DNA of 48,096 nucleotides, from NCBI GenBank assembly GCA_024695415.1, contig JAILIE010000006.1, positions 1 to 48,096 on the forward strand, read 5' to 3'. A program made the translations under genes and the position numbers. This document shows positions 18,846 to 28,684 of the stretch, piece by piece; position 1 is the stretch's first letter; each line of letters begins with the position of its first letter. This DNA is from Clostridiales bacterium (GTDB taxonomy: Bacteria > Bacillota > Clostridia > Christensenellales > Aristaeellaceae). The notes under the pieces were generated by a model. It saw only the letters and a program-made list of their open reading frames with translations, had not been told where the DNA came from and did no database searches.

Positions 18846-19592
18846 CTAGGCGGCCTTTCTTTTGCTGATCATGCGGTACCCGCAGGAGCAGATTGCCGTA
18901 ACAGCAAGTGTAATCCCATATGTAATGATCGCAGTTCTGTAATTCCCCTCCTGGGTCAGGCTGCCGCTGATCGTGGAAGTAATGACAGAAGGGATCCGGG
19001 CGACCATCGTCAGGAGCAGGAAGGTCCCCATCTTCATCGGGGTCAGCCCCGCAAGATAGGTCAGCAGGTCTTTCGGCGTTCCCGGCACAAGGAACAGGAT
19101 AAAGGTCAGCAGGTTCAGTTTCCGGCTGTCGTTCAGGAAGGAATAGCGCATAATCTTCTCCCGCGGGAAGAACAGCTCCACCAGCTTCATCCCCCATTTG
19201 CGTACCATCAGGAAGACCAGCGCGGACGCCAGGGTCGATCCGACCAGGCAGATCACGGTTCCCGGAATCCAGCCGAAGACAAAGCCTGCCCCCAGTTCAA
19301 ACGGTTCACCCGGGATAAAAGCGACGACCACCTGCAGGATAATGATTCCCGTCATAATCAAAGAACCGGTAAACCAGTGTTCGCTCACATAGGCCCGGAA
19401 AGTTTCCGGCGATTCCCGGAACTGCTGAAGAAGCGGCCTGCCGACCCAGATCGTCACAGCGGCAAACACAGCCAGCACCAGCGCCGCCAGCGCCAGTGTA
19501 AGCGCCTTTTTCCGTCCCTGTGAATTGTTTTCGGTCTTTTTCTTTTCTGTTTCCGCCTTGTCCCTGTTCTGATTATTCACGATACGGTTCAT
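18846..19592 (-). CDS. TVP38/TMEM64 (SNARE-associated/DedA-like) membrane protein
   Basis: AFIPGEPFELGAGFVFGWIPGTVICLVGSTLAS and FLVPGTPKDLLTYLAGLTPM; SD GGGAGG before ATG 19592. Confidence 0.9.
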   Translation of the reverse strand: MNRIVNNQNRDKAETEKKKTENNSQGRKKALTLALAALVLAVFAAVTIWVGRPLLQQFRESPETFRAYVSEHWFTGSLIMTGIIILQVVVAFIPGEPFELGAGFVFGWIPGTVICLVGSTLASALVFLMVRKWGMKLVELFFPREKIMRYSFLNDSRKLNLLTFILFLVPGTPKDLLTYLAGLTPMKMGTFLLLTMVARIPSVITSTISGSLTQEGNYRTAIITYGITLAVTAICSCGYRMISKRKAA

Positions 19593-19608
19593 TTTCTTTT
19601 CCTCCCTG

Positions 19609-19758
19609 TTATTTTTCTGACGTCCAGCCACTGCCGTTTGTCTGTCCGTTTTTTTCATTTTCTTTCCCCTTCCTGGTCGCTCTGATCTTCCTGATATCCC
19701 CGATCAATTCCGGCAGCTCAAACAGAAATTCAAAAAGGAACTGTATAAAATACTCCAA
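19609..19758 (-). CDS. Candidate small ORF (49 aa, TTG start) upstream of TVP38 gene
   Basis: AAGGAGG 7 nt before TTG; LEYFIQFLFEFLFELPELIGDIRKIRATRKGKENEKNGQTNGSGWTSEK; stop 16 nt before next ATG; not in ORF track. Confidence 0.45.
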   Translation of the reverse strand: MEYFIQFLFEFLFELPELIGDIRKIRATRKGKENEKNGQTNGSGWTSEK

Positions 19759-19854
19759 CAACCTCCCTCCTTTTCTTTCCCGCATTCCCGGATCTCAGTT
19801 CCTTGTCGGTATCCTTTTGACATCCTGAGCATATCACCACCTCCGGCGCTCCAC

Positions 19855-19871
19855 GTCTACCCGCGGTAGAC
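19855..19871 (-). promoter_or_regulatory. Palindromic operator copy A (GTCTACC-CGC-GGTAGAC)
   Basis: Perfect 7-bp inverted repeat; one of three copies in the window. Confidence 0.75.
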
Positions 19872-19874
19872 AAC

Positions 19875-19897
19875 AAAAAAAGAGCCCCTCAGGGCTC
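19875..19897 (-). terminator. Rho-independent terminator of the kinase/XRE operon
   Basis: GAGCCCTGAGGGGCTC followed by TTTTTTT on minus. Confidence 0.8.
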
Positions 19898-19941
19898 CGT
19901 GTGCCGGATTGTCCAAAGACAGGGAGGGCGGATTGTGTCCG

Positions 19942-20370
19942 TTACATATCGTACGGCCAGAGCAGCTTCATGCCTTTCTCCTTCAGCAGCTGGTCCATTT
20001 CGTCCAGTGTCAGGTGGTTGATCAGGCCGAACAGAATGCAAACGTCCCGGGGAATCGAGGATGTCAGCTGAGAACGATGAGCGCTTTTCAGGAGTGCCTG
20101 CGTTTCCTCCACATCCATGCCCAGCGTGAACGCGATCCGCAGCAGCACATCCTGTTCCGGATGCGACCGGCCGTCCATCAGCTTATAGACGTTTGCCCGG
20201 CTCGTTCCCGCCCGCACGCCCAGGGTCTCGTAACTCATATCCCCGAGATGCGGCAGGATCAGCTGGGCAATGCTCTTCATGGGCTTGGAAGTTTTCAGCA
20301 GTTCCTCGAGTGAAACGCCGCGCCCCATTTCGTCGATCATCCGGATCGTGCTGCGCACCTTGTCGTCCAT
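19942..20370 (-). CDS. XRE-type HTH protein
   Basis: MSYETLGVRAGTSRANVYKLMDGRSHPEQDVLLRIAFTLGMDVEETQALLKSA; start overlaps kinase stop (TAATG). Confidence 0.82.
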   Translation of the reverse strand: MDDKVRSTIRMIDEMGRGVSLEELLKTSKPMKSIAQLILPHLGDMSYETLGVRAGTSRANVYKLMDGRSHPEQDVLLRIAFTLGMDVEETQALLKSAHRSQLTSSIPRDVCILFGLINHLTLDEMDQLLKEKGMKLLWPYDM

Positions 20371-23300
20371 TACGTTTTCCCCGTTTCTTCCTCTGTCTGT
20401 TCAAAATCAAACGTTTCCACAATCTCCCAGGGATCCGGCATGGCCGTGCCTCCGGGAATTGGTTCAAATGAAACGCTGTTTTCTTTTGCCCATTGTTCGG
20501 CGGTGGACCCTGCGTATCCGTGGACCGTCCAGGCCGGCGGGTCTTCCGCGAAATAAGCTCCCCAAAACTCCGCCTCAGGATTATACACCCAGATATCCCG
20601 GATCTGCGGACAGTTTTCCTCCAGCAAATAAACGTTTAGCCGGCTGATCCCGGATGAGCAGTAAATAGCCCTCAAGGCTGTGCAGCCCTTAAACGGTGTA
20701 CTCTCAAACGCGGTTCTCACCCCTTCCGGGAAGACTGCCAGCTGAAGACTGCTGCAATTCAGGAAGGCCTGGCTGGAGATGTCCCGAAGGTGTTCTGGAA
20801 GCACTACATACCGCAGGCTGGTACATGATTGGAAAACGTGGGACGTGATATACGTGAGATCGTCAGACAGCTGAATTTCCCGAAGCAACAGGCAGCGCTC
20901 AAACGCGCTGGACTCAATGTGTTCCGCGTTCTCCAGAGAAAGCGATGTCAGGGCGGTACAGCTTTGGAATGCCTGCATCTCTATCGATTCCGTCTTCTCC
21001 GTCGGAACCGCCTGCAGCGAGGAACAGCCGTCAAAAGCGCAGCTGCCGATCCCAACAATTTCACCTTCTATCGAAACCCGGCGAAGCGCAGTATCGTTGT
21101 AGAATGAAAAGTCTTCTATTTTTGTCTGATACCGGGACAGGATAATTTCTTCGATATATGGATTAAAACCGTAATAACATCCGGTGATCAGGATATTTTT
21201 CTCTTCGCTGTAATAAGGAACCCGGACCATTGTCTCCGGACGGTCTGACCCGTAATAGGCTGTGCCGTCATCGCTGACGGAATCCGGCGCCATCCATTGA
21301 TCGATCGATTCAAAACAGACCCCCATGCGGTTCGCGTATTCTTCCGCTGTCGTACCGTTATGCCCGGCAATCACCAGATCGGATGAGCAGCCCGTAAACG
21401 CCTGGTCGTCGATGTATTCCACCGAGTCGGGAATCAGGATGAACTCCAGGTCCGCGCAGTCTGCAAACGCTTCATAGGCGATCGTCCGCACACCGTCCGG
21501 CAGCGCGATCCAGTGAAGCCCGGAATTCTTGAATGCGTATACTTCAATGTCCGTCACTGTATCCGGCAGGACAAGATTCGGAATTGCAGAAAATGAAAAA
21601 GCGCTCACCGGAATACTCTGAAGCGTGTCAGGCAATTCAATGCCTGCCAGATTATGTGTGTTTGTAAAAGCATATTTACCGATAGATTCCACGCTGTTCG
21701 GTATCTTCAGGGAAGATATTTGACAGCCTTCGAAGGCGTTCTCACCGATCTCCCGGAGCCCGTCCGGCAATATGAGTTCCGAAAGGCCCGTGCACCAAAG
21801 CGCATGCTCCCCGATCCGTTCCAGTGTATCCGGAAAGACCAACTCCCGGAGTTGATAGCAGTTCGCAAACGCTTCAACCCCGATTTCCCGGACATAATGC
21901 CCCATACGGACCTGTTGTAAATGCAGCGGTTCTTCTTCAGCGAAAACGTCTTCTCCATAGAACAGATATGGCGTCACGATTTCAAGGTATTCCGGCAGCC
22001 AGACCTCCTCATGCATCCAGAGCTGTACACCTTCCCGGATCTCTGTCACCGGGACACCTTCCACAAAGTTTGGCAGTGTCAGCCGTTTCGCGTCCGAGTA
22101 GACAGACGTAATCTCGGCTGTTCCGTCGTGGATCTCCCAGCTCAGTTCGGAAGGGTCAGCAAGGCGGAGTTCGTGTTCTTCGGAATACTGTTCCGCTGCC
22201 GTCCCCCGGCCGCACCAGACGGTCATCTGGCTCGCTTCCGCGGGCAGCGCGCTGTTTCCGATTGCGGTCAGCGAATCCGGCAGCATCAGCGTCTGCAGGC
22301 TGCCGCACGCGCTGAAAGCCAGATTACCGATGGATTCGACGCCTTCCGCCAGGGACACCTCTTCCAGTTTGTCGCAGCCGTAGAACGCCGAATCCCCGAT
22401 TGCGCATACGTTTCCCGGAACATTCGCCCGCCGCAGCGCATCGTCCCCGCGGAAAGCGCTGTCACCGATCTCAGACACCGGGATGCCCAGCACGCTTTCC
22501 GGGATCGATACCTCCTCCTGCTTCCGCAGCTGCCGGACAATATGGATGCCGTTGCTCCGCACGGAGCCGAGCAAGCCGCTGCCAATCGGCAGGCCGGTTG
22601 TAAAGTTCAGCGTAACCAGTCCCAGCAGCAAAAGCAGTACCGCGGCGGCCGCAATCACCCGCCGCGTAAAGCGTTTCCGCCGGATGACTTCCTCCGGCAT
22701 CGGCAGATGATAGAGCGCCGCGCGGAACTCCGCCATGGACTGGGTCCGCTTCTCCGGATCGACGATCAATGCCGCGTCGATCGCGGCGGCTTCCCGGTGT
22801 CTCAGGCCGGTATGCATGCGCGTGAGCGGCTTCTGTTCGTCGTGATGCGCCCGCAGCGGCGCTTCCACGGGTTCCTGCCCGCTGAAGAGCGTATACATCA
22901 CCGCGGCCAGGCTGTACACGTCGGTCCACGGACCCTGCCGTCCGTAGTCCCGCCCATACTGTTCCACCGGCGCGTACCGCCGGGTCAGCAGCACCGTTCC
23001 CCCGCTCCGTTCGACTTCCACTGCCGATCCGAAGTCGATCAGCTTCAGGCCTCCGTCTTCTCCGACCAGGATGTTATCCGGCGTGACGTCCCGGTGAATC
23101 ACTCCCTGGCTGTGCGTCCGCACAAGCGCGTCAGCCACAGGCCGGAGCTTTTCCAGCAACGCCGCCGGCTTGATTTCGTTTTCCCGGACCCATCGGTCGA
23201 TCGGCGTTCCGTGAACGAATTCCATCACGATATACGCCGTCCCGTTTTCACTGAAAAAATCCATGACCTTGACCACGCAGGGGATTCCCTGCAGTGAAGC

Positions 23301-23669
23301 CAGCAGATTTGACTCCCGGCGGAACCGGCTCAGGCCGTCCACAAAGACCGCTTCCCGCTCCGCCAGCGGCACCAGGTCGTCCGAAATCTCCGTATCGCGG
23401 GTCGCGTCCTCCCGGGGAAAGAATTCCTTGACCGCCACGGGCATTCCAAGCGTTTCGTCCCAGGCCGCGTAGGTAATCCCGAATCCGCCCCGGCCGATCG
23501 CGTCACCCAGTTGGTACCGCCCTGCCAGGAGCGTTCCACTGTCCAGCGCCATGGGCGGCCGGCGCGTCCCCGGTTCCCGTCCGCACAGCGGACAGGCGGA
23601 AACGTCCGTGTCCGTTTCCGCCAGCTTCCGCATACACCGCGGGCAGTAGTTGTTGCCGTCAATGTCCAT
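20370..23669 (-). CDS. Transmembrane Ser/Thr protein kinase with N-terminal zinc ribbon and C-terminal BspA-type LRR domain
   Basis: CPRCMRKL..CPLCG; IGRGGFGITYAAWDE, VAVKEF, VIHRDVTPDNILV, LIDFGSA; TM VIAAAAVLLLLLGLVTLNF; repeats such as IGDSAFYGCDKLEEVSLAEGVESIGNLAFSACGSLQTLMLPDSL. Confidence 0.93.
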   Translation of the reverse strand: MDIDGNNYCPRCMRKLAETDTDVSACPLCGREPGTRRPPMALDSGTLLAGRYQLGDAIGRGGFGITYAAWDETLGMPVAVKEFFPREDATRDTEISDDLVPLAEREAVFVDGLSRFRRESNLLASLQGIPCVVKVMDFFSENGTAYIVMEFVHGTPIDRWVRENEIKPAALLEKLRPVADALVRTHSQGVIHRDVTPDNILVGEDGGLKLIDFGSAVEVERSGGTVLLTRRYAPVEQYGRDYGRQGPWTDVYSLAAVMYTLFSGQEPVEAPLRAHHDEQKPLTRMHTGLRHREAAAIDAALIVDPEKRTQSMAEFRAALYHLPMPEEVIRRKRFTRRVIAAAAVLLLLLGLVTLNFTTGLPIGSGLLGSVRSNGIHIVRQLRKQEEVSIPESVLGIPVSEIGDSAFRGDDALRRANVPGNVCAIGDSAFYGCDKLEEVSLAEGVESIGNLAFSACGSLQTLMLPDSLTAIGNSALPAEASQMTVWCGRGTAAEQYSEEHELRLADPSELSWEIHDGTAEITSVYSDAKRLTLPNFVEGVPVTEIREGVQLWMHEEVWLPEYLEIVTPYLFYGEDVFAEEEPLHLQQVRMGHYVREIGVEAFANCYQLRELVFPDTLERIGEHALWCTGLSELILPDGLREIGENAFEGCQISSLKIPNSVESIGKYAFTNTHNLAGIELPDTLQSIPVSAFSFSAIPNLVLPDTVTDIEVYAFKNSGLHWIALPDGVRTIAYEAFADCADLEFILIPDSVEYIDDQAFTGCSSDLVIAGHNGTTAEEYANRMGVCFESIDQWMAPDSVSDDGTAYYGSDRPETMVRVPYYSEEKNILITGCYYGFNPYIEEIILSRYQTKIEDFSFYNDTALRRVSIEGEIVGIGSCAFDGCSSLQAVPTEKTESIEMQAFQSCTALTSLSLENAEHIESSAFERCLLLREIQLSDDLTYITSHVFQSCTSLRYVVLPEHLRDISSQAFLNCSSLQLAVFPEGVRTAFESTPFKGCTALRAIYCSSGISRLNVYLLEENCPQIRDIWVYNPEAEFWGAYFAEDPPAWTVHGYAGSTAEQWAKENSVSFEPIPGGTAMPDPWEIVETFDFEQTEEETGKT

Positions 23670-23696
23670 TTATCTTTCCTCCGGATTGCTGTCTGT

Positions 23697-23725
23697 ATTA
23701 TAGGGCATACGCGGATGGATGACAA
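23697..23725 (-). promoter_or_regulatory. Sigma-A promoter TTGTCA-N17-TATAAT for the kinase operon
   Basis: Near-consensus hexamers with exact 17-bp spacer, just upstream of the kinase ATG. Confidence 0.75.
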
Positions 23726-23733
23726 GCCGCGGA

Positions 23734-24237
23734 TCAGTTCATTCCCTTGTAGATCTTCAGCCCGGTTGCGATGATCGTTCCGACGACCCTCACCTGCTTT
23801 TCAATATCCGGGGACACGCTGCAAAGTTCCGTTCCGTTTACGCTCAGATCGTAACGACGCACCTTCACCTGGTTCCGCTTGGTCTGGATCTCAGCCGTCA
23901 GCACGGATCCATGTTCGAGATTACTGATGGTCCAGGTCCGGTCCGGCACACCGTATTTATCCGGATCCATAGTCAGAACATGCGATTGGTTATCTGCCAT
24001 ATATGCGCCGAATGTGACAATGTCGCCCTGTTCCAAGTGCGCAACCTCGATTCCGTCGAGATAGACCGTCACCCCGTAGCAGGAAAGGGCGATGTTGTGA
24101 TGCAGACTGATGCTGAATGTCCCGTAGATGGCATGGACGTCTTCGTCCTCCGCCTTCACTTCGGCGATCGATGCGATCTGGAAGGTCACCAGGATGATGC
24201 AGAACAGGACGGCAATGATCTTCTTGAAGCTTTTCAT
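23734..24237 (-). CDS. Exported/anchored uncharacterised protein
   Basis: MKSFKKIIAVLFCIILVTFQIASIAEVKAEDEDVHAIYGTFSISLHHNIALSCYG; signal-like N-terminus. Confidence 0.65.
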   Translation of the reverse strand: MKSFKKIIAVLFCIILVTFQIASIAEVKAEDEDVHAIYGTFSISLHHNIALSCYGVTVYLDGIEVAHLEQGDIVTFGAYMADNQSHVLTMDPDKYGVPDRTWTISNLEHGSVLTAEIQTKRNQVKVRRYDLSVNGTELCSVSPDIEKQVRVVGTIIATGLKIYKGMN

Positions 24238-24307
24238 GGAGATTCTCCTTTCATCTTTCAAAATCGTTTGGTTGTTCGCCGGAGTTCCTTCCGACGATTT
24301 CAGCTTA

Positions 24308-24754
24308 TCACCGGTTTTGGGGGCCCGCGTCTACTCGCGGTAGACAACCCGTTTTTCCCGGAGGACTTTTCCCCTGCAGGAAACGACGGATCCGCTTCTC
24401 CAGAAGACAATCCCGGATCACCCCTGCGGTCGTTGTGACAACCAGGGGCCAGCAGATTACCATCAGTCCCGTCAGAAACAGGATGCCGCGGGAGAGGAGC
24501 CAGTGGCTGCAGACCGTCCGTATGCGGACGTGTCCCTGGCTGTATGGGGAAAGTATAATGGTTATCTGCCGGTCCATGCCGATCCATCGGAGAACCTGTT
24601 CGTTCCGGTCATGGGCCTGGATCACATACTCCCCGCTGACCGTCGTCAGGATCCGCGTCTCCATGTTTTCCTGTTCATCCAGCATTCCGGCCGCCGCGTG
24701 TGCCGCGGACGACAGCGTCGTCCCGTCCTTAATCGGCATCTCGCAGGTCTTCAT
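24308..24754 (-). CDS. Uncharacterised membrane protein
   Basis: AGGAGGTG SD before MKTCEMPIKDGTTLSS; hydrophobic WLLSRGILFLTGLMVICWPLVVTTTAGVI. Confidence 0.6.
   Translation of the reverse strand: MKTCEMPIKDGTTLSSAAHAAAGMLDEQENMETRILTTVSGEYVIQAHDRNEQVLRWIGMDRQITIILSPYSQGHVRIRTVCSHWLLSRGILFLTGLMVICWPLVVTTTAGVIRDCLLEKRIRRFLQGKSPPGKTGCLPRVDAGPQNR
24329..24345 (-). promoter_or_regulatory. Palindromic operator copy B (GTCTACT-CGC-GGTAGAC)
   Basis: One mismatch to perfect dyad; lies in the 3' end of gene 24308..24754 and 92 nt upstream of gene 23734..24237. Confidence 0.7.
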
Positions 24755-24828
24755 CTCTTTCACCTCCTGTCTCGGGCTGACTTGTCCCTTCTGGCAGGCC
24801 AAGCGTAGCATGAGGGAGAGGTGCCTGC

Positions 24829-24845
24829 GTCTACCGGAGGTAGAC
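24829..24845 (-). promoter_or_regulatory. Palindromic operator copy C (GTCTACC-GGA-GGTAGAC)
   Basis: Perfect 7-bp dyad 75 nt upstream of ATG 24754. Confidence 0.75.
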
Positions 24846-25076: not shown

Positions 25077-27152
25077 TTACGGGTTTACGTACCTGGTGTG
25101 ATTGGTCTTGCAGTAGTCTTCGGCATATGAGCCGGGGATGACCGTAACCTTGACCGGGCTCTGGTAGAAGACGCCCATGCCCATGTTGGTGACACTGGCG
25201 GGGATGGTTACGTTTTTCAGCTCATCGCACAGGGAGAAGGCCTGCTGTCCGATGTCGGTTACGCCGTCCGGCACCTCGATGTATGCCAGGGAGAAACAGT
25301 AGTAGAACGCGAAATCGCCGATGGTCTTCACGTTGCCGGGAATGTTGATCCGCCACATATATCCGCAGTCGGAGAAGGCGTCGTTTCCGATGAACTGCAC
25401 TGTTTCCGGCAGTTTCATGCTCCGAAGTCCGCGGCAGCCGTGGAAAGTGTAATCCTCCACGCCCGTGATGTTTCCGAGGATGTCGATTTCAGCCAGGTAA
25501 TGACAGTCACGGAACGCGCCTTGTCCGATATGGACCACGCTTTCCGGTATGGTGACTTTTGTCAGGCCGTTCCGGTTTCTGAAGACCTCCTCACCAATAC
25601 CTGTCACGCGGATTCCGTCCAGTTCACCCGGGATCACCAGTTCGGTTTCCCATCCGTTGTACGCGCAGATTTCCGCGGTTCCGTCGCTCAGGAGCATATA
25701 CTCATAGTCCCCGCAAACAGCAGGTCCCGAAACAGCTTCCGGGAAAGCATGCGGGTCGGCGGGCTGTTTCTCTTCCTGGACATATCTGTAATTGCCTGCA
25801 ATGCAGTAGGCCTCCGCCGGTGAGCCGGCAATGACGGAAACCGTCAGGGCGCTGCCGCTGCTGAAGGCATAATCGCCGATATCCGTGAGGCTTTCCGGAA
25901 GGGCGATACTGGTAAGGGAATCGCAGTTGCCAAAGGCGTAATATCCGATGCTCTTCACGCCTTCCGATATGACAGCGTTTTGCAGGGAAGTGCAGCCGCA
26001 GAACGCCAGCTGCCCGATGCTTTCCACGCTGCCGGGCACCCTGATCTCCTTCAGGGAAGCGCATCCGTCGAACGCGTTGTCCCCGATGGCGGTAACGCTT
26101 TCCGGGATCGTAATATTCACCAGTGCGTCGCAGCACTGGAACGCGCGGTCCCCGATTTCCGTGACGCTTCCCGGAATCGTGACGGCGGTCAGGGAGGGAT
26201 TGAAAGCAAAAGCATCGTTGGCGATCCCTGTCGTGCCGTCCGGCACGGTATACTCCGTTTCAGGCCGCCCGCAGAGATAACTCAGGAGCCGCATGTCCGG
26301 TTTGCTGAAAAGGACGCCGTTCACGGATCTCAGGTGTGGATTTAAGGGGGAAACGGTGATCTCCCTGAGCGCGGTACAGTTTGAGAAAGGATTGTCTCCG
26401 AACTCCGCGACGCTGTCCGGGATAGTGATGGATGTCAAGTGGGTGCATGCCCGGAACGCTCCCTTTCCGATGGCGGTCACGCTCCCGGGAATCACTATTC
26501 CCTTCAGGGAGAAACAAAGGCTGAAGGCTTCGCTGCCGATCACCGTGGGCCCGTACGGTATCCCGATATAGGACAGGTACCGGCAGGCGTTGAATGCCAG
26601 GTCACCTATAACCGTCACGCTGCCAGGAATTGTGACGCTGTGCAGCGCGTCGCAGGTACTGAAAGCCGCCTTTCCGATTACCTGGGTCCCGTCAGGTACC
26701 GTGTACTGATCATTTTCTTTGGCAATGGGGTAAAACACCAGCCGCCTGTCCGGCTTGCTGAACAGGACGCCGTCCACAGTCTCCAGCGTCGGATGATCCG
26801 GGGAAATGACGATTTCCGCCAGGCTGCCGCATAAGTAAAAAGGATTGTCCCCGATCTCCGTGACGCTGTTCGGTATCGTAACGCTGGTCAGGTCCCGGCT
26901 CTGCCGGAAAGCCATGTCGCCGATCCGGGTTACTCTGTGCCCGTCCAGTTCCTCCGGAATCACCAGGCTTTCGATGATTCCCGAGCGGTCCACAATTTCG
27001 GCGGTCCCGTCGTTCCGGACGATGTACACGAACACACCGCTGGTAACCCGCTCCGGTTCCTCCGGAGTGCCGGAATCTTCCGCCGAACCGGCGCCGGCCG
27101 TGAATGCGCAGGCCAGCAGCAGGACGAAGAAAACGGACAGCAGCTTTTTCAT
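25077..27152 (-). CDS. Secreted BspA-type leucine-rich-repeat protein
   Basis: Signal peptide MKKLLSVFFVLLLACAFTAGAGSA; repeated VTAIGDNAFDGCASLKEIRVPGSVESIGQLAFCGCTSLQ units; start 27152, not 27227. Confidence 0.92.
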   Translation of the reverse strand: MKKLLSVFFVLLLACAFTAGAGSAEDSGTPEEPERVTSGVFVYIVRNDGTAEIVDRSGIIESLVIPEELDGHRVTRIGDMAFRQSRDLTSVTIPNSVTEIGDNPFYLCGSLAEIVISPDHPTLETVDGVLFSKPDRRLVFYPIAKENDQYTVPDGTQVIGKAAFSTCDALHSVTIPGSVTVIGDLAFNACRYLSYIGIPYGPTVIGSEAFSLCFSLKGIVIPGSVTAIGKGAFRACTHLTSITIPDSVAEFGDNPFSNCTALREITVSPLNPHLRSVNGVLFSKPDMRLLSYLCGRPETEYTVPDGTTGIANDAFAFNPSLTAVTIPGSVTEIGDRAFQCCDALVNITIPESVTAIGDNAFDGCASLKEIRVPGSVESIGQLAFCGCTSLQNAVISEGVKSIGYYAFGNCDSLTSIALPESLTDIGDYAFSSGSALTVSVIAGSPAEAYCIAGNYRYVQEEKQPADPHAFPEAVSGPAVCGDYEYMLLSDGTAEICAYNGWETELVIPGELDGIRVTGIGEEVFRNRNGLTKVTIPESVVHIGQGAFRDCHYLAEIDILGNITGVEDYTFHGCRGLRSMKLPETVQFIGNDAFSDCGYMWRINIPGNVKTIGDFAFYYCFSLAYIEVPDGVTDIGQQAFSLCDELKNVTIPASVTNMGMGVFYQSPVKVTVIPGSYAEDYCKTNHTRYVNP

Positions 27153-27256: not shown

Positions 27257-28684
27257 TCAGGAAACCATCTCAAGCAAGGGCTTCATCGCACCGACGGACT
27301 TGCGGAGCAGGTAAATACCATCAACCTTACCGAGGGCATCACATTCGTGTTCAAAAAGACTCCAATCGTGTTTGACCTTCAGCATTTCATCTGACTGCTT
27401 TTTCGCATAGTCACTGTATTTGGCATAACCCTCCTCACGGAAGTCAGCCTTTCCCTGCTCATTTACCCGGATCCTGACGTCTTCCGCACGGACTCTACCC
27501 CCGTTCTTCGTGTAAACTACCAGCATGGTCATCCTGTTCAGTCCGTCCTTACTCCAGGCAATCGGATTGCGGCTCAACCGGTCAGACAGGACATGACTGA
27601 CCTGCGGTTCAGTGCAGCTGCCGCAGGTTTCTTTGTTCATGCGGACAACAATGGCGCTCCAATGATTAGCACAATACTCAACAAACGCCCTGACTTTTTC
27701 CTGTCCCTTCTCCGTTGTCTGCCTGCTGAAGATCACTTCACAATAACGTTCAAAAGCCTCGTATCCATCCTCTTTACGCATGGAATCACGGATTGCTTTG
27801 GCATATCCGCTGGCTCCTTCCAAGCGCAGGAATGACCTCAATTCTTTTTCCAGGTGATATCCGTCCAGAACCAACCGTGAATGTGGAATCAGTTGCTGCA
27901 ATCCTTTAATCCAGGATCCGCCGTCCGCATGAATGTTGATTTGTTCTACATTGTCCAGATTATACCGTTCTGTCAGCACTGCCAGAACATTCTCCCTGAA
28001 GGCATCCGGTGTCATGCCGAAAGCTGCCACATGAATCGGATGGATGGTTTTATGCCGCTTGGGATTGCTGACGTCCATCCCTTCAGTAATCGTCACCAAC
28101 GGCACAATCGCCTGCCCCTTCGGTGTCAGATGAACATGGTCCTCATCCGCAAAGATATCCAGTGTTTTCGGTGCCTCTTCCACACGTTCCACGGGCATAA
28201 CAAGGTCATCCAGAGCCACCAGGCGATTATGTACCGTCTGCCGGGATATCTCTTGCTTAGTCGAATCAATCGCCTGCTGGTACGATTTCACAGTCGACAT
28301 CTGAAGAAGATCTGCCACCAGTTCCTTTGAGATCCGCTCGTAGGATTCCACACCGATTATATGATCCAGCAGATAGACAAATGACCCATCCGGCAATCTG
28401 AAATAGGTTCGTTGGTAGTTCAGTTCGCCCAGTTCTGTCAGCAAGGTCCTCGGGACATTCCTTTCCTTGACAGTGATTCCATCCTCTCTCCGGAGCGCCT
28501 TGGCTCCAGTGACAAGAGCTTCATCCATCCCCTCAAGGAACGCTGTCAGAACACTCAATACTGTCCTTGAAGCAACCGGCGTGAGCGCCTTTACTGTCTT
28601 TCCGATATCGCTCAATCCGGTTACCTTGACTGATTCGAAAATTTCCTCTACTGCTTTGAACGCAATCTGTTGTATAATCTCCAT
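27257..28684 (-). CDS. ISLre2 family transposase
   Basis: 475-aa ORF filling the element; family recognised from sequence (YQRTYFRLPDGSFVYLLDHIIGVE, INIHADGGSWIKGLQQLIPHSRLVLDGYHLEKEL). Confidence 0.93.
   Translation of the reverse strand: MEIIQQIAFKAVEEIFESVKVTGLSDIGKTVKALTPVASRTVLSVLTAFLEGMDEALVTGAKALRREDGITVKERNVPRTLLTELGELNYQRTYFRLPDGSFVYLLDHIIGVESYERISKELVADLLQMSTVKSYQQAIDSTKQEISRQTVHNRLVALDDLVMPVERVEEAPKTLDIFADEDHVHLTPKGQAIVPLVTITEGMDVSNPKRHKTIHPIHVAAFGMTPDAFRENVLAVLTERYNLDNVEQINIHADGGSWIKGLQQLIPHSRLVLDGYHLEKELRSFLRLEGASGYAKAIRDSMRKEDGYEAFERYCEVIFSRQTTEKGQEKVRAFVEYCANHWSAIVVRMNKETCGSCTEPQVSHVLSDRLSRNPIAWSKDGLNRMTMLVVYTKNGGRVRAEDVRIRVNEQGKADFREEGYAKYSDYAKKQSDEMLKVKHDWSLFEHECDALGKVDGIYLLRKSVGAMKPLLEMVS

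Follow-up and report, generated by a model that had tools for sequence, protein, structure and literature searches.

A conserved dyad-promoter motif in Aristaeellaceae points to an XRE protein linked to a kinase as its putative regulator

Lambda CI, an XRE-fold helix-turn-helix (HTH) protein, acts at OR2/PRM on a promoter with a weak or absent -35 element, from a 17-bp odd dyad centred at about -42 of the activated promoter, the arrangement that we propose below. ClgR (Clp gene regulator), an XRE activator of stress and proteostasis genes, has a 17-bp dyad whose half-sites lie 11 bp apart, and AfsK-AfsR is a known case of a kinase that signals to a transcription factor. Class II activators bind near -41.5 and compensate for a poor -35 (PMC8561392), and the XRE-type activators C.Csp231I, C.AhdI and lambda CI contact region 4 of sigma (PMC4824078). 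Here we analyse a 17-bp dyad, GTCTACC-N3-GGTAGAC, in a window of 48,096 nucleotides (nt; assembly GCA_024695415.1, contig JAILIE010000006.1, positions 1 to 48,096) from a Clostridiales bacterium of the family Aristaeellaceae. We consider it probable (roughly 0.7) that an XRE protein encoded beside these dyads is a CI-like class II activator acting at them, and that the adjoining kinase with leucine-rich repeats (kinase-LRR) is its likely signal input.

The dyad occurs in three copies on the minus strand, sites A, B and C (Table 1), with exactly the sequences given in the initial annotation. The spacing reported there, TAGACG-N17-TGnTAnGCT, is exact at all three and equals dyad-N18-extended -10. 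Its estimate of 75-97 nt from site to gene was close to what we measured from dyad to start: 69 nt for A (to the ATG of an open reading frame, ORF, of 58 amino acids, aa), 91 for B and 74 for C. On its own the window is weak evidence for the dyad, as a scan for the dyad alone with up to three mismatches found 3 where 1.07 are expected by chance.

Table 1. Features of the locus, in window positions
Feature	Position	Strand	Remarks
Site A dyad	19855..19871	-	GTCTACCGCGGGTAGAC
Site A extended -10	19828..19836	-	TGATATGCT, 18 nt past dyad
Site A third conserved element	19812..19821	-	GTCAAAAGGA, predicted near +1
Site B dyad	24329..24345	-	GTCTACCGCGAGTAGAC, one mismatch to dyad
Site B extended -10	24302..24310	-	TGATAAGCT, 18 nt past dyad
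Site B third conserved element	24286..24295	-	GTCGGAAGGA
Site C dyad	24829..24845	-	GTCTACCTCCGGTAGAC
Site C extended -10	24802..24810	-	TGCTACGCT, 18 nt past dyad
Site C third conserved element	24786..24795	-	GCCAGAAGGG
XRE/HTH_31 protein, 142 aa, proposed regulator, putative dyad binder	19942..20370	-	Pfam, co-occurrence and model
Ser/Thr protein kinase with zinc ribbon and LRR_5 repeats, 1099 aa, proposed signal input	20370..23669	-	Pkinase 7.4e-32, LRR_5 2.7e-106
Near-consensus sigma-70 promoter of kinase-XRE operon	23697..23725	-	TTGTCA-17-TATAAT, 11/12; no dyad
Site A target: VTT (TVP38/DedA-type) membrane protein	18846..19658	-	Pfam VTT_dom 1.5e-18
Possible site A target: putative 58-aa ORF overlapping TVP38/VTT gene start	19609..19785	-	Weak, start codon uncertain
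Site B target: exported protein, 167 aa, no known family	23734..24237	-	Start 91 nt from dyad
Site C target: small membrane protein, alpha/beta domain and C-terminal helix, cassette-conserved family	24308..24763	-	Homologues 19-36% identity

Stronger evidence comes from the genome and its relatives. Throughout the 2.16-Mb genome (80% complete), the dyad with at most one mismatch is found only at A, B and C, the next-best dyad (on contig 6) having two mismatches, and the composite of dyad and -10 has three matches only, all at this locus. The genome-wide scan proposed in the initial annotation thus confines the composite to the A, B and C promoters; random occurrence of the motif in coding DNA with no promoter association, which would have spoken against it, was not observed. 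A strict dyad search with no mismatches gave no match in 99 relatives. The single homologue of the site-C membrane protein found in the genus (31% identity, genome G004) carries TTGTCTACTGCCGGTAGACA-N17-TGGTAAGAT upstream. A relaxed composite query (GTCTAC-N5-GTAGAC-N18-TGNTANNNT, at most one mismatch) matched 8 of 300 family genomes, the discovery genome included, in six genera, most of the seven others holding several copies and the maximum being five per genome; the reversed control gave one match. At zero mismatches and gaps of 17-19, the composite was found in none of 395 other genomes sampled across the order. One match in G306 (L077 13426 +) was left off the site list because it was a listed site read in the wrong orientation. 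Taken together, these comparisons support a composite promoter motif that at least 11 family genomes conserve. The named hosts are uncultured Clostridia or Clostridiales metagenome assemblies, some from goat stomach compartments.

Alignment of 24 sites from 11 genomes yielded three elements. The first is the dyad, TTGTCTACYnnnRGTAGACR, with both arms equally conserved. The second is an extended -10, TGnTATGCT, in which TG is present at 20 of the 24 sites and the hexamer, of sigma-70 type, matches TATAAT at three to five of six positions. The third, overlooked in the initial annotation, is GTCRAAAGGA, which begins 6 nt past the -10, at about +1; its ten columns carry 8.0 bits, where 2000 random rotations never exceeded 3.1. 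The poor -35 region claimed for the window was borne out at the 24 sites, where -35 matches (1.75) were no better than in shuffled sequence (2.27). With the -10 hexamer set at -12 to -7, the dyad runs from -50 to -34 with its centre at -42 relative to the predicted start, an arrangement that fits a class II promoter with its activator site near -41.5 over a poor -35. The initial annotation had spoken of an undescribed activator-dependent promoter class; the comparisons support the promoter class, and dependence on an activator is consistent with this geometry and the absent -35. In G200, a single dyad (L041 8022-8038) has a -10-like element at the correct spacing to either side and may thus form two divergent promoters, with a kinase-like gene on one side and an XRE gene on the other.

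We propose that a single regulator, the XRE protein, uses A, B and C as its operator-promoters. Its dimer would most likely sit on the 17-bp dyad, over the missing -35, and touch sigma region 4, recruiting RNA polymerase to the extended -10 as lambda CI does at PRM. The kinase-LRR would likely set the activity of the XRE protein, probably through phosphorylation or direct contact. At this locus the output would be a local regulon of small proteins that are exported or lie in the membrane; in relatives it would extend to an Hsp70-like protein, the kinase and the XRE protein itself (autoregulation). The XRE protein is favoured as a class II activator because of the geometry, the absent -35, the known XRE-type activators and its XRE fold model; both its binding to the dyads and activation rather than repression are what we infer from sequence.

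Repression is the main alternative. The XRE protein would then bind the dyads and block RNA polymerase at -50 to -34, with the kinase relieving the block under stress. Many small XRE proteins are repressors, the dyad does overlap the -35 region, and the G200 dyad could serve two diverging promoters. However, across all 24 sites the -35 matches no better than shuffled sequence does, while the kinase promoter and the CIRCE-htpG promoters of relatives have a recognisable one, and a single fixed distance to the -10 would be needless for a repressor site. We regard repression as unlikely.

The identification of the XRE protein as the regulator draws on its family, its distribution and its divergence. 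It matches Pfam HTH_31 (1.9e-6; 28.5 bits against a cut-off of 27), placing it among proteins with a Cro/CI-type HTH. Its structure model is all-helical (predicted local distance difference test, pLDDT, 90), with a short helical region as its C-terminal part. XRE structures head the fold search, though at a weak Foldseek E of 0.08, and the HTH matches, weak in E-value, include C.AhdI (1y7y), P22 c2 and ClgR (3f51/3f52). Close homologues (E<1e-36) are present in nine of the same 300 genomes and all nine carry sites, seven as composite sites and two (G246, G332) with the gap shortened from 18 to 17 nt. No site was found in 30 family genomes that lack a close XRE. Counting the 18-nt-gap composite scan only, the association gives a Fisher p of 7e-12, or 2e-10 without the discovery genome, and against a near-zero background it is hard to explain otherwise. 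XRE and kinase-LRR homologues share the site-bearing contig in six of the seven other site genomes, and XRE is the only DNA-binding family seen in common among the six cassettes first compared, genes on the loci of relatives having been called by codon usage trained on the window. As the sites are almost confined to genomes with the XRE protein, they point to an undescribed, kinase-linked system of gene control. Some XRE proteins are about 257 aa long, with a second, degenerate HTH-plus-C-terminal repeat (L037 17097-17870, L038 14171-14944, L073 9261-10034, L074 440-1213).

Divergence of the XRE protein is accompanied by a change of site. The XRE proteins of G330, G306 and G333 have 41-43% identity and a recognition region in which SPALW/SPAMW replaces SRAN/SRAY; their loci carry CTCTAY-N5-type dyads, not GTCTAC, at the same distance from the -10. 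A weight matrix built from the 24 sites found further promoters before the XRE gene (G330, G332) and a membrane-protein gene (G330), and scores of 13 or more were absent from 505 kb of base-shuffled sequence; the training sites include some from these genomes, and the result counts as support rather than as an independent test. These observations support a shift of site sequence with XRE divergence.

The initial annotation had named the XRE protein and an unlinked LuxR-type factor as candidate regulators. Presence that tracks the sites, membership of the family shared by the cassettes, co-divergence, and sites ahead of XRE and kinase operons favour the former and disfavour the latter. An unlinked regulator, of LuxR/NarL type or other, would make the XRE gene a mere fellow traveller. 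LuxR-type factors also bind dyads near -42, and G004 has a site with no detectable XRE. Against this stand the genome-wide co-occurrence of XRE and site, the change of dyad with the XRE recognition region, and the fact that no other shared DNA-binding gene was seen at the cassettes, although unlinked regulators were not searched systematically; we regard this explanation as improbable. Still less probable, to a degree that makes it hardly credible, is an alternative sigma factor whose -35 lies within the dyad (TAGACR): it would account for the fixed distance to a conserved -10 and for the conserved element after it, but a 17-bp palindrome with equally conserved arms is unlike a sigma -35, and the extended -10 is of the sigma-70 type. 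Chance repeats or RNA hairpins and terminators, suggested by the terminator-like sequence directly before site A and by the one dyad or so expected per window at three mismatches, are rejected, given conservation across genera, fixed spacing and near-zero controls, and the dyads lie upstream of the -10 with no T run following on either strand. CIRCE/HrcA was also rejected as the identity of the dyad, CIRCE being a different dyad.

Several observations weigh against the XRE protein as a kinase-controlled activator at these sites. Firstly, G004 (88% complete) combines a perfect site and a homologous target with no detectable XRE, while the sites of G269 and G333 are all degenerate and G141 has none. 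Secondly, the E<1e-36 cut that defines the close XRE set was post hoc, if set against a near-zero background, and sites within one genome are non-independent. Thirdly, the kinase-XRE operon of the window has no site, and autoregulation is therefore not universal. Lastly, we infer control of the XRE protein by the kinase from shared operons and gene neighbourhood alone, and in G213 and G053 the XRE gene lies several kb from the kinase.

The kinase-LRR gene forms one operon with the XRE gene and has homologues in the XRE cassettes; as the initial annotation had described, the operon has a promoter of its own, near-consensus and free of the dyad. Against the full-length PASTA-kinase model (Stk1/PknB) the kinase scored 142.7 bits, below the cut-off of 450, and with the PknB-PASTA, PknD and AfsK models, too, its scores stayed well short of the curated cut-offs. 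Among PADLOC models for known anti-phage kinase systems, its kinase domain matches PD-T4-6 and mad6, and the XRE and target proteins match nothing.

The third element behaves differently from the dyad. GTCRAAAGGA also occurs, without a dyad, at CIRCE-htpG and hsp20 promoters of relatives lacking a close XRE (L090-L094, L099); it is therefore unassigned to the XRE protein and was rejected as a mark of its regulon. In this lineage it probably serves stress promoters as a leader element, separate from the site of the regulator, and it may stabilise stress mRNAs as a 5' leader or Shine-Dalgarno-like element.

By analogy, the mode of control resembles CI-like activation, and what appears new is the coupling to a kinase and the three-part promoter. 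All 15 aligned homologues have an acid in HTH helix 2 (E/D at the residue aligned with CI 34, or else an acid at 38), a likeness to lambda CI that is common in XRE proteins and discriminates weakly; the activating patch of CI comprises residues 35, 38 and 39 (PMC5171851). Unlike CI, the 142-aa XRE model has no CI-type C-terminal dimerisation and self-cleavage domain, the operator sequence is unrelated, operators are mostly single, and the locus lies beside a kinase, not in a prophage. The restriction-modification controller (C) proteins C.AhdI and C.Csp231I are likewise small XRE activators working through sigma region 4, as proposed here, and C.AhdI is among the best structural matches, for the HTH domain only (TMq 0.37). 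However, C boxes are paired where almost all promoters here have single dyads, and C proteins have no kinase partner. The genes called in the window and cassettes include none recognised as a restriction or methylase gene, although no dedicated search was made. ClgR, which the fold search also returned, differs in operator sequence, targets and lineage and has no kinase in its operon. PknB/Stk1 and AfsK-AfsR share the Hanks-type kinase domain, whereas here a zinc ribbon and LRR_5 repeats stand in place of PASTA, and the partner is a small XRE protein. A limited search of open papers found no published account of a kinase-XRE promoter system.

In the literature searched, no output was found assigned to kinase-LRR genes of this type. 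The present associations would connect such genes with one particular DNA-binding protein, with a defined operator and with target promoters that can be read off as a list, making the pathway testable, and the few known CI-like activators would be joined by one linked to a kinase. With the composite as a search motif, more members of the regulon can be found in uncultured bacteria of the rumen and gut. More tentatively, and with somewhat more doubt than confidence, we envisage a one-operon module of gut and rumen Clostridia in which the zinc-ribbon kinase-LRR directly switches the CI-like XRE activator, and the latter in turn drives a dispersed stress regulon by way of the dedicated three-part promoter. 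If true, the module would stand beside two-component systems as their Hanks-kinase counterpart, patchily spread between genera. A transposase-like gene (27257-28684, minus strand), judged by eye, lies near the locus and is compatible with patchy spread of a cassette.

The genes behind the sites make a stress or envelope role of the regulon plausible. Sites precede the small membrane-protein family in G000, G004, G180 (twice) and G216, exported proteins in G000, G180 and G221 (twice), Hsp70-like genes in G213 and G246, and the XRE gene itself in G332 and G330; in G053 the site comes before a small membrane-type protein with the Hsp70-like gene behind it. One site-bearing membrane-protein copy in G180 leads a membrane protein-kinase-XRE run, and sites also stand ahead of kinase-XRE (G216) and exported-XRE (G221) pairs. 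The small envelope proteins named as targets in the initial annotation thus describe this locus but not the whole set, which elsewhere takes in Hsp70-like proteins, the kinase and XRE. Most homologues of the site-C membrane protein adjoin composite sites or XRE-kinase cassettes; its fold model is moderate, with no significant structural match. The only homologue of the site-B exported protein is a weak one in G024 (24% identity), which has no site close by.

Other genes recur around the cassettes. An ADP-ribosylglycohydrolase in G306 (L077 18053-19153) has its own site, and several cassettes have close by an RNA ligase, an HD-AAA_33 protein, a NadD-NADAR-like fusion or a sirtuin-like gene. These genes, of NAD/ADP-ribose and RNA-repair type, were noted at L073 3040-5028, L076 5115-8293, L077 11066-14183 and L038 12059-13162. 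In the window, a second exported LRR_5 (BspA-type) protein (25077-27152, minus strand) adjoins the cassette with no site ahead of it.

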